64,000 nt of DNA from NCBI GenBank assembly GCA_024734555.1, contig JANPWX010020521.1:51498-115497 (forward strand), given 5' to 3'. The notes under the pieces were generated by a model that was given only the letters and a program-made list of their open reading frames with translations, was not told where the DNA came from and ran no database searches. This document shows, one piece after another, positions 33,304 to 36,024 of the stretch (positions within the stretch are counted from its first letter, which is position 1; each line of letters starts with the position of its first letter). Origin of the DNA: Trochalopteron elliotii. Lineage: Eukaryota; Chordata; Aves; Passeriformes; Leiothrichidae. The position numbers were made by a program, and so were the translations under genes.

Positions 33304-36024
33304 TCAAGTGATGGTTTCCAGATGGGTCGGCAGAGAGCTCTCTCTGGGCGAAACCATTTCTTTCCTGGTCAGAGCCTTCATTACCCGACGTGTATGAGTA
33401 CCTTCTCTTGCAATTATCCCTAGGAGACACTTATATGCTATGACAATGAGAATCACTATTATTACAATCATTACAATGTACTGTATTATAGAAGATAACC
33501 AACCTGAGACCTGGATTCCTAATGAGCTAAATAGAGCTCCTACCCAATTATGTTCTGCCTCCTTTTGGACCTCCTGCACTTGTGATTCAATTTGTCCCAA
33601 TTGACTTATATCTTTTTCCACCTCTTGGGTTACGTTTGGGATATGCACACAACAATGGTCATCTTTCCCTTGCAGGTAGCCACAAACTCCATGTTCTCTT
33701 AGCAAAATCATATCCAGAGCCATCCTATTTTGAACGGTCATTCTGGTAGTTGCTTGTAACTGAATATTCAAATCCTTAAACCCCTTCTTAGTGACTGCTG
33801 CCAATCGTTCTGCTTGTCCCAGTAACTTGTAAAGCATCTCTCTGTTCCTATAAGTAGCTACCGGAGCAAATAATGACTCAAGTGCCCAACCAAATTTAAC
33901 TCCCCCTGATGGTTCATGCCATTCGTCCTCTGGATCTACTAATTCGTCCACCTCCCTTCTTATTCGCCTCTGGGTCTCCTCCTTAGTAAGTTTGGACTGT
34001 TTCCAGAATGGACATAAAGTGGGAATTCCTAGCGTAATTTGTGTCACTGAACCATCGATTGGCATATGGGTAGTCCATTGTCCATGTCCCTTAACCCAAA
34101 CTAAGTTCCCTGGGCTTCTTACTGTGGTTGTTTTGCAGTCAACTCCCATTTTATTATCTCTTTTCATAGAATGATTATATCCTCTGCACTCACATCCCAG
34201 CTGTAACAGAATTCTCACAGGTAACAAACCAATATGTTCTGGTGGGGTATCACAAGTAAAGATTTTGGTACAGTTCCAATCATCCTTAGCTTCCGTTAAT
34301 TGTCTCCAATGTGCAGGAACATCTTTAGATAATTCATAACTTTGGTTCTTTTTCCCTATCCATTGAATACACCAATTCACTGGGCCTATGTAACTATATG
34401 TTTCCAATAAACTTGGTCCCCAGATTGTCTGCCACTCTTCCATAGTGGTGTGGTGAGTAACATTTTGGCATACTTTTTCATTTATCTTTTTCTTTGTTTG
34501 TATTTGCACTCTCGAACAGGGGTACGTCCCTGTTTCTGAAACTATACAACTTCCCTTATTTCGGGGGTCCTCTACCCAACCGAGATAGCCTGGCATCTGT
34601 TGACATTGTTGCTTAGTAACCTCCTGTGGGATCAAACATCCTTCTATCCATCCTGGTATTATGTGGGATACAAATTTACAATTCCAGGAGACATTACTAA
34701 ATGCTTTGGGCATCTCTCCGACAGGTATGATTCCCCATGGTATTGGGTCACCTGCTGAGTGAGGCATGGGCAGGCAAGCTGTAATGGTTGTGACATTTTG
34801 CATTTTCCCAAAATCTCGAATTAATCCTAGCACCAGATTTTCTTGCTCTGGGGTTTTTATGGGATTCCTAATCTCTGTTACTTGCCTGGTGACTCGAGTT
34901 TCTTTCATATAGACGTGAGTCATTCCATGTTCCCACCAATCATCCTCCGAGATCCAACACCAATAATTTCCTTCATCATCATCCTTTTTGGCCTGCCTGA
35001 TTATTAACACTATCATTCCAACTCTTCTCTCGATCTGATATTTGGGTCCAGATTTCAAATTTCCCTTAAACCACCACCCAAAGTCAGTGAATTTCTTTCC
35101 CCCTGTGATACAGCTTAGAATTAGGTCCCGACCTTCTGTTGCTAGATATACCCCATGCTGTGGTTTAACGCTCCCACCCAAGTGAGGATTGACAACTACT
35201 TCCCTCAGTCCATAGTTCCCGTCACTTCCACAAGTGACTACGCATAGGTATTCTCCTTCAGCCTCCCCAATTTTGGGATCAGTAATGTTGAGCCACCCCT
35301 CCCCTCTCAATCCGACTATCCACCAGCTTATTCCAACGGTTAATCTTTCCCACATCTGGTCCGGGCCCATTTTCCACCATTTGACTTGTACTGTCCATCC
35401 ACAATAATGATCTAATTCAAAGGTGCAGTTTATTCTTAATGGGGGTCCATTCCACATGTCAACTTGTGTGCGGACCGGTACCACTGTGACAGGATTTTCC
35501 AAATTTTCCTTATTATTTATCCCTAACACTTTTACCTCAACATTCCCATAATCAAAGCTATCTCTAATCCAAACAACGCATGTGAATGGGCCTGTATGGT
35601 TTCTCCATGTTGTGGGTACCTGCAAGGTCGTGTTCCCTCTCTGTTGTTGCTTATCCCAGAACAAAGTAACCATTCCCTGATCCGCCACTTCTGGTCCCAC
35701 TTTCCATCTGACATTTATTTCTTCGAATCCAGCTCTCTGGTTATCTGAAAACAAACAGGTTAGATTCATGCTCGCATTTTCAGGCACTACTACATACGGA
35801 TCAACTACAGTAACTACCACAAAAGTATCCACATATAAGATCTGTCCCAGTAGGATGACAATTATTAGGATTTGGCTTTGAACACCATCCGGGTAGCAGA
35901 CAGAGGTCGAACTTCCCACTGAGACGGGACTTTCTTGACTCTGGTGTAATGGATCCAGTTTCCGATGCCCTCGACCTTTACAGCGGTGAAAGTAGTCATG
36001 AGTACTTGGTAAGGGCCTTCCCAT
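33304..36024 (-). CDS. env: Env glycoprotein with three N-terminal Ig-like domains
   Basis: Intact frame of up to 906 aa. Hydrophobic signal/anchor about 51-70. Three Ig-like units follow: C90-W107-C149, C200-W216-C261 and C305-W317-C356, the last two with the Y-x-C signature before the second Cys (GEYLC, GNYWC). A cysteine-rich surface region (about 395-686) and furin-type site RIRR (687-690) come next. The transmembrane subunit has a heptad region, QNRMALDMILLREHGVCGYL resembling the immunosuppressive segment, a C781-x9-C791-C792 motif and a membrane span (about 842-866). The frame overlaps the pol end by 160 nt. The true start may come from splicing, so residues 1-50 are uncertain. The Ig-like part is unusual: I recognise no retroviral Env with it, and origin from a host immunoglobulin-superfamily gene is inference. 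Confidence 0.88.
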   Translation of the reverse strand: MGRPLPSTHDYFHRCKGRGHRKLDPLHQSQESPVSVGSSTSVCYPDGVQSQILIIVILLGQILYVDTFVVVTVVDPYVVVPENASMNLTCLFSDNQRAGFEEINVRWKVGPEVADQGMVTLFWDKQQQRGNTTLQVPTTWRNHTGPFTCVVWIRDSFDYGNVEVKVLGINNKENLENPVTVVPVRTQVDMWNGPPLRINCTFELDHYCGWTVQVKWWKMGPDQMWERLTVGISWWIVGLRGEGWLNITDPKIGEAEGEYLCVVTCGSDGNYGLREVVVNPHLGGSVKPQHGVYLATEGRDLILSCITGGKKFTDFGWWFKGNLKSGPKYQIERRVGMIVLIIRQAKKDDDEGNYWCWISEDDWWEHGMTHVYMKETRVTRQVTEIRNPIKTPEQENLVLGLIRDFGKMQNVTTITACLPMPHSAGDPIPWGIIPVGEMPKAFSNVSWNCKFVSHIIPGWIEGCLIPQEVTKQQCQQMPGYLGWVEDPRNKGSCIVSETGTYPCSRVQIQTKKKINEKVCQNVTHHTTMEEWQTIWGPSLLETYSYIGPVNWCIQWIGKKNQSYELSKDVPAHWRQLTEAKDDWNCTKIFTCDTPPEHIGLLPVRILLQLGCECRGYNHSMKRDNKMGVDCKTTTVRSPGNLVWVKGHGQWTTHMPIDGSVTQITLGIPTLCPFWKQSKLTKEETQRRIRREVDELVDPEDEWHEPSGGVKFGWALESLFAPVATYRNREMLYKLLGQAERLAAVTKKGFKDLNIQLQATTRMTVQNRMALDMILLREHGVCGYLQGKDDHCCVHIPNVTQEVEKDISQLGQIESQVQEVQKEAEHNWVGALFSSLGIQVSGWLSSIIQYIVMIVIIVILIVIAYKCLLGIIAREGTHTRRVMKALTRKEMVSPRESSLPTHLETIT

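Follow-up and report, generated by a model that had tools for sequence, protein, structure and literature searches.

Gamma-type envelope proteins (Env), such as those of murine leukemia virus (MLV) and the syncytins, carry a CXnCC motif, typically with n = 6, and the CXXC motif of their surface subunit (SU) is absent in alpharetroviruses (PMC9967133, excerpts). Host-type immunoglobulin (Ig) domains are described from other viral settings: in the endogenous retrovirus CrocERV31, a nectin3 sequence about 76% identical to that of the host replaces env (PMC4299795, excerpts), and De2, the PD-L1 homologue of a dolphin gammaherpesvirus, is a membrane protein that is 71% identical to host PD-L1 and was shown to bind PD-1 (PMC9514091, excerpts). 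The avipoxvirus proteins SWPV1-183, CNPV081 and CNPV166 are tabulated as Ig-like domain proteins (excerpts of PMC5390406 and PMC8151833), and the excerpted text of PMC5390406 mentions no retroviral link for them. Here, we describe a provirus on the minus strand of a 64,000-nucleotide stretch of the Trochalopteron elliotii genome (assembly GCA_024734555.1, contig JANPWX010020521.1, positions 51,498 to 115,497; hereafter the window, in whose numbering coordinates are given), the Env of which bears three tandem Ig domains ahead of SU. This Ig head has homologues in avipoxviruses, and its first domain probably derives from a host V domain of the B7/PD-1-ligand kind.

Results

The env open reading frame (ORF) encodes 906 residues (33304..36024, minus strand, as are all features of the provirus) and is open throughout. 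A leader with a hydrophobic signal segment at about residues 47-65 (residues 1-65, 35830..36024; hydrophobic 19-mers start from residue 47) is followed by D1, a PD-1-ligand-like V domain (residues 66-170, 35515..35829), D2 (residues 176-284, 35173..35499) and D3, which is I-set/V-like (residues 286-376, 34897..35169). The initial annotation had proposed three Ig-like domains at 34900-35800, an interval that does correspond to Env residues 75-375, and the cysteine spacings that it gave (59, 61 and 51 residues) were recovered at C90/C149, C200/C261 and C305/C356; the D/E-x-G-x-Y-x-C signature assigned to units 2 and 3 is exact in unit 3 (DEGNYWC), but unit 2 has only a near match (AEGEYLC). Matches to the Pfam models ig (E 2e-12), Ig_3 (5e-11) and I-set (1e-5) all lie above the curated cut-offs, structure prediction yielded a confident all-beta model of the head, and a fold search matched this model to solved Ig chains. 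The predicted beta-sandwich, together with the B-F disulphide positions and the tryptophan, places the head in the Ig superfamily (IgSF), so that the three-domain assignment is backed by profile, by predicted structure and by the many copies described below. D2 contains a further cysteine pair (C208/C265), absent from the initial annotation, which lines up with two paired cysteines of mouse PD-L2.

The Ig units share a single frame with the SU/TM basic site and the transmembrane subunit (TM), as had been stated. Between head and SU core lies the furin-like motif RVTR (residues 377-380, 34885..34896); the SU core (residues 381-690, 33955..34884) contains no cysteine pair three apart, and hence no CXXC, and ends in the predicted SU/TM furin site RIRR (687-690), which reads QRRIRR in 25 of 26 Env sequences of this genome and QRRIRK in the other. 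The gamma-type TM (residues 691-906, 33307..33954) has its cysteines (781, 791 and 792; 33649-33684) arranged as C-x9-CC rather than CX6CC. It matches the Pfam model TLV_coat at residues 750-868 (E 1.8e-5), this retroviral coat model hitting the TM only, and in a profile search of the PDB it aligned with syncytin-2, across QNR-x-x-LDM in a stretch resembling the immunosuppressive domain, and with filovirus GP2. The whole Env had 38 PDB matches, and the retroviral and filoviral ones all fall within residues 708-877; the alignment of the head region to ordinary gammaretroviral SU that would have contradicted the Ig assignment was not found among them.

The fusion of Ig head and Env is not an accident of assembly, since in the T. 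elliotii assembly (1.04 Gb) all 50 scored matches, out of 718 candidates, span Env nearly end to end with the head included, at 92-100% identity; two of these copies (C1894 and C1895) are identical, and some rows may represent duplicate contigs. Seventeen of the 50 lack an internal stop. For the analysis of selection, 27 copies (L002-L008 and L012-L031) and the window copy were taken; after removal of one because of its length and of another that was identical, 26 sequences remained. Over the whole Env, the ratio of nonsynonymous to synonymous change (pN/pS) was 0.28. The SU core and TM each gave 0.20 and the head gave 0.46, with 0.33, 0.61 and 0.51 for D1, D2 and D3, respectively; the eight head cysteines and RVTR were kept in all 26 distinct sequences. 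We conclude that the head was under selection for function while the family spread. Stop-bearing copies gave similar ratios (0.32 for the whole Env), as expected if most of the divergence predates decay. Env copies also occur in pairs about 8.74 kb apart (C667, 333 and 9080; C1792, 155126 and 163869), which suggests tandem proviruses, and one copy (C1234, 129868-132543) lies inside an open frame of 2556 residues, far exceeding Env.

The initial annotation had proposed a search of bird genomes for the same N-terminus, and protein searches revealed Ig-headed Env relatives in several passerines. The whole Env as query found 9 proteins among 3504 candidates, and residues 384-900 found at least 26 among 8000; the hosts include Pipra, Manacus, Zosterops, Prinia, Serinus, Hirundo, Catharus and other passerines, as well as kakapo and duck. 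When domain profiles were applied to 27 proteins (26 relatives and the window Env), D1-D2-D3 was present in 6, D1-D2 in 3, D1 alone in 6, D1 with a piece of D2 in 1 and a partial or hybrid D1 in 3, and 8 had no Ig domain, although these 8 include fragments and fused models, and mis-splicing may affect some of the gene models. The kakapo Env is of the D1-alone type, with an Ig match of only 28 bits, and two relatives without any Ig domain (P0020 and P0021) are complete-looking Envs, in which a short stretch and a basic site separate the signal peptide from the core. Judging from these domain counts, the number of Ig domains varies from 0 to 3 on one Env core. One zero-Ig core relative, the Anas platyrhynchos model P0018, is joined to a pol containing YMDD and the domain PF06817, which hints at an Env common to another retrovirus class.

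Comparison with host proteins points to B7-type ancestry for D1. In a PDB profile search with D1, among the best 60 of 1544 matches, PD-L2 was the top single-Ig-domain chain (38.7 bits) and PD-L1 scored 33.0, and chains of CD276, CEA, CEACAM1 and DIP equalled or exceeded these totals over several domains. The weak list for D2 was headed by mouse PD-L2 (E 0.058), in an alignment that takes in the extra cysteine pair, and BTLA was close (0.059); the kakapo Env Ig domain matched CD276, butyrophilin 2A1 and PD-L1. D3 was generic I-set/V: among the best 60 of its 113 matches, pIgR (1e-8) ranked below titin, CEACAM, DSCAM and neurofascin, and CD300 was absent, so that the CD300/pIgR likeness suggested earlier for unit 3 is, among the matches listed, unspecific as a sign of origin. 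In the T. elliotii genome, a mouse PD-L2 segment detected two exons 19 kb apart on contig C1578 (E 6e-5 and 0.05; 8.5e-14 and 2.2e-9 in tblastn on the two loci), which, from their sequence and adjacency, we take to be PD-L1 and PD-L2. For control, 90 host exons were drawn from a V-set search of this genome (106 matches, from 150 scored of 381 candidates), the 16 left out being mostly the weakest. Against these, D1 ranked PD-L1 first (43.7 bits) and PD-L2 second (29.0), and the ranking was unchanged without the pox rows (38.1, 28.2 and 27.8 for the first three exons). For D2, the top score was that of PD-L1 (14.5), ahead of an exon read as CD86-like (13.7), with PD-L2 in fourth place (11.6); the kakapo Ig domain ranked PD-L2 first (20.9), PD-L1 second (19.3) and another exon third (19.1), and D3 placed PD-L2 16th and PD-L1 56th. 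Hhalign aligned D1 with three PD-L rows over nearly its full length (probability 98.2, E 5e-14). In all of 10 aligned Envs, Asp-Tyr follows the second cysteine of D1; it is lost in P0017 and also occurs in the host PD-L rows. The PD-1-ligand layout of one V domain, one C-type domain and an anchor of its own is not seen here, D2 and D3 not being read as C-type and the Env core following them. By the profile and exon comparisons, D1 would descend from a host B7/PD-1-ligand V domain, and D2 probably does too.

The initial annotation had considered either capture of host Ig sequence or an Env lineage that evolved an Ig-like head. Our results bear out part of each, in that the head is of host Ig type (clearly in D1, weakly in D2) and yet appears to be an old feature of the Env lineage, because its best host match reaches only about 44 bits, several passerines have relatives and kakapo has a one-Ig Env. 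The notion of a recent capture does not hold up well: every match of the head profile was avipox(-like) or of the Env lineage and none was a host IgSF protein, in a search that needs exact word matches and that remote host genes could therefore escape.

A basic motif recurs at the junction of head and core, typically 10-20 residues before the conserved start of the core (ENL/ENV). R-x-x-R was found in 20 of 25 relatives (mean 8.3 and maximum 15 in 2000 shuffles), some basic motif in 23 (mean 8.9, maximum 16) and the stricter R-x-K/R-R in 7 (mean 1.8, maximum 8), and 19 of 164 35-residue windows of the SU core contained R-x-x-R. At the corresponding place, RMKR is present in the zero-Ig Envs P0020 and P0021 and KMKR in P0025. 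We infer a second proprotein-convertase cut at this junction, and the head may therefore not stay on the mature SU.

The head profile (E <= 10) retrieved 10 proteins from 1856 candidates. Six are named avipoxvirus proteins, from Shearwaterpox (two), Crowpox, Mudlarkpox, Albatrosspox/Penguinpox 2 and Magpiepox 2; a seventh, of 274 residues on a 78-kb contig, groups with them; and the remaining three belong to the Env lineage (P0031 with the head only, P0033 and P0036 with the start of the core). Five full-length pox proteins (332-345 residues) consist of a signal peptide and D1-D2-D3 and end about where the retroviral basic site starts, the Magpiepox and 274-residue proteins being shorter. SWPV1-183 aligned with the window head at E 1.6e-116, with 43% identity over 98%. 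The pox rows form one clade among the retroviral heads (support 91/83 for D1, 87/85 for the whole head), which adjoins the Pipra head in the head tree (86/88), whereas the D1 tree does not resolve its neighbor. In the approximately unbiased (AU) test, a grouping of the window-group heads (window, Pipra, P0003 and Aphelocoma) that excludes the pox heads was rejected (p 0.0156), also when Zosterops was added (p 0.0075). In the core tree the window group is a clade (95/96); given the position of the pox proteins within the heads, this makes transfer from retrovirus to poxvirus the better reading. Titles of works cited in the literature refer to reticuloendotheliosis virus sequences or proviruses inside fowlpox genomes, so that contact between retroviruses and avipoxviruses does happen. 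A scan of IMG/VR with the avipox protein found no relative.

The provirus has gag, pol and env all open between two long terminal repeats (LTRs), the 5' LTR at 41234..43255 and the 3' LTR at 31233..33253, which align over 2022 columns with 3 mismatches and 1 gap; by its LTRs, the provirus is young. The polypurine tract AAAAGGGGGGAGT (33254..33266) adjoins the 3' LTR. The gag ORF (39387..41105; Gag_p30 and a zinc knuckle) ends in TGA and is in the same frame as the pol ORF (35865..39368; protease, reverse transcriptase, RNase H and integrase with an MLV-type C-terminal domain), the end of which overlaps the start of env. Profile searches assigned gammaretrovirus-type domains throughout (Gag_p30, RVT_1, RNase H, integrase and the MLV integrase C-terminal domain), and the element is best read as a recently active, gammaretrovirus-like bird endogenous retrovirus. 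At 39383-39389, TGA followed by CTAG (UGA CUA G) separates gag from pol in one frame; UAG is the usual gammaretroviral gag-pol stop, and the UGA CUA G context is a strong readthrough signal. The LTR flanks, CAAC (31229-31232) and GTTT (43256-43259), show no target-site duplication although the LTRs are 99.8% alike, and recombination between copies is therefore possible. In 41150-41233, where the sense strand starts TGAAATTCGTCAGACG, no usual primer-binding site beginning with TGG was recognized directly after the 5' LTR.

Discussion

We propose that a gamma-type SU core and TM fusion subunit gained the three-Ig head on their upstream side and that this head serves immune modulation as a semi-autonomous B7-type module, a reading to which we assign a probability of roughly 50%. 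The Env signal peptide would export the head, and at the furin-like R-x-x-R the head would probably be cleaved off the core or stay loosely attached to it. Fusion would fall to the SU core and TM, and the head may engage B7-partner-type receptors of the host, either immune or surface receptors. Avipoxviruses would have acquired the signal peptide together with the head from a retrovirus of this kind and would use them, without the rest of Env, as a secreted Ig protein. Immune modulation is favored because of the B7 ancestry, the faster evolution of the head and its retention by poxviruses without Env. A more specific form of this proposal, in which a detachable PD-L1/PD-L2-like head is displayed and shed by virions and infected cells and acts through PD-1 or some other B7 receptor to dampen T cells, and in which avipoxviruses then took the module from the retrovirus as a secreted immunomodulator, is rather doubtful.

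Several observations weigh against this proposal. JAM-A (35.9 bits) is close behind PD-L2 for D1 among the matches listed, the third host exon for D1, read as CD86-like, nearly ties with PD-L2 (28.6 against 29.0), and the exon scores of D2 and the kakapo domain are low, with rivals close behind. D3 does not resemble PD-L domains, nothing in the head corresponds to the C-type second domain of PD-L1 and PD-L2, and a joint tree of D1, D2 and the host PD-L domains does not resolve and places the kakapo row at the end of a very long branch. As to cleavage, the rows of the motif comparison are related and some were counted more than once, so that its trials are dependent, two of the 25 relatives have no basic motif at all, and the window motif RVTR satisfies only the minimal R-x-x-R. 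As to transfer, the head tree lacks a good outgroup root, the AU groups were picked after the trees had been seen (and Aphelocoma contributes no core to the core tree), and the proposed direction assumes one common history for head and core.

The head's position ahead of SU means that a role in attachment is also possible. The head may be the receptor-binding domain (RBD) of this Env, having replaced the gammaretroviral N-terminal RBD and binding an IgSF partner for entry with no immune role; this is a real possibility, if a less probable one. In its favor, the head occupies the usual place of the RBD, the match to the Pfam coat model is confined to the TM, CXXC is absent from the SU core, and the head evolves faster than the core (pN/pS 0.46 against 0.20). 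However, P0020 and P0021 keep an intact-looking core that apparently serves without a head, a furin-like motif separates head and core, and avipoxviruses retain the head without any Env. The RBD of MLV and of feline leukemia virus is itself described as an Ig-like sandwich, from which one might suppose that the Ig domains are an ordinary gammaretroviral RBD, multiplied and without host ancestry. We regard this as highly improbable, given the canonical B-F cysteines, the Pfam ig and I-set matches, the nearly full-length alignment of D1 with PD-L1/PD-L2, and retroviral or filoviral matches that begin at residue 708 or beyond; the fold search, with no retroviral RBD among its best 50 matches, is uninformative here.

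Poxviruses often capture host genes, and the head may instead have arisen or first been captured in an avipoxvirus, or been derived from hosts twice, and then passed to the retrovirus. Several avipox Ig-like genes are indeed on record (CNPV079, CNPV081, CNPV166 and others; PMC5390406, excerpts). We nevertheless consider a poxvirus-first history unlikely, since the pox heads are one clade among retroviral heads, the AU test rejected the grouping without them, and a one-Ig, B7-like Env occurs also in kakapo. Acquisition by avipoxviruses from a retrovirus would, if true, mean that a gene had moved from a retrovirus to a large DNA virus, and it would offer a candidate origin for proteins tabulated only as Ig-like in the excerpted sources. 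The sharing of the head by both virus groups suggests a common viral tool against host immunity or for cell attachment.

Env exchange between viruses is already known for retroviruses. With its 0 to 3 host-type Ig domains and its second basic motif, the Env described here would extend the known designs by a modular head, and its likeness to PD-1 ligands makes checkpoint mimicry by a retroviral envelope directly testable. Among the titles and abstract openings of the mostly open-access, non-preprint literature surveyed, we found neither a retroviral Env with such Ig domains nor a retroviral link of the avipox Ig genes, the closest cases being the nectin3 sequence of CrocERV31 and De2.

The window Env resembles the gamma-type Envs of MLV and the syncytins in its signal peptide, SU, furin-like SU/TM site and TM matches (PMC9967133, excerpts) and differs from them in the three-Ig head, the second basic motif, C-x9-CC and the lack of CXXC in SU. 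With the nectin3 capture of CrocERV31 it shares the combination of a retroviral element and three host-type Ig domains (PMC4299795, excerpts), but the window head is far more diverged and is fused in frame to a complete Env. The avipox proteins SWPV1-183, CRPV-108 and SWPV2-155/CNPV166 (PMC5390406, excerpts) have the same signal peptide and D1-D2-D3, and, unlike the window Env, they stand alone without SU core or TM. Like De2 (PMC9514091, excerpts), the window Env brings an Ig domain of the PD-1-ligand type into a virus; unlike De2, this domain is of remote ancestry and forms part of an Env.
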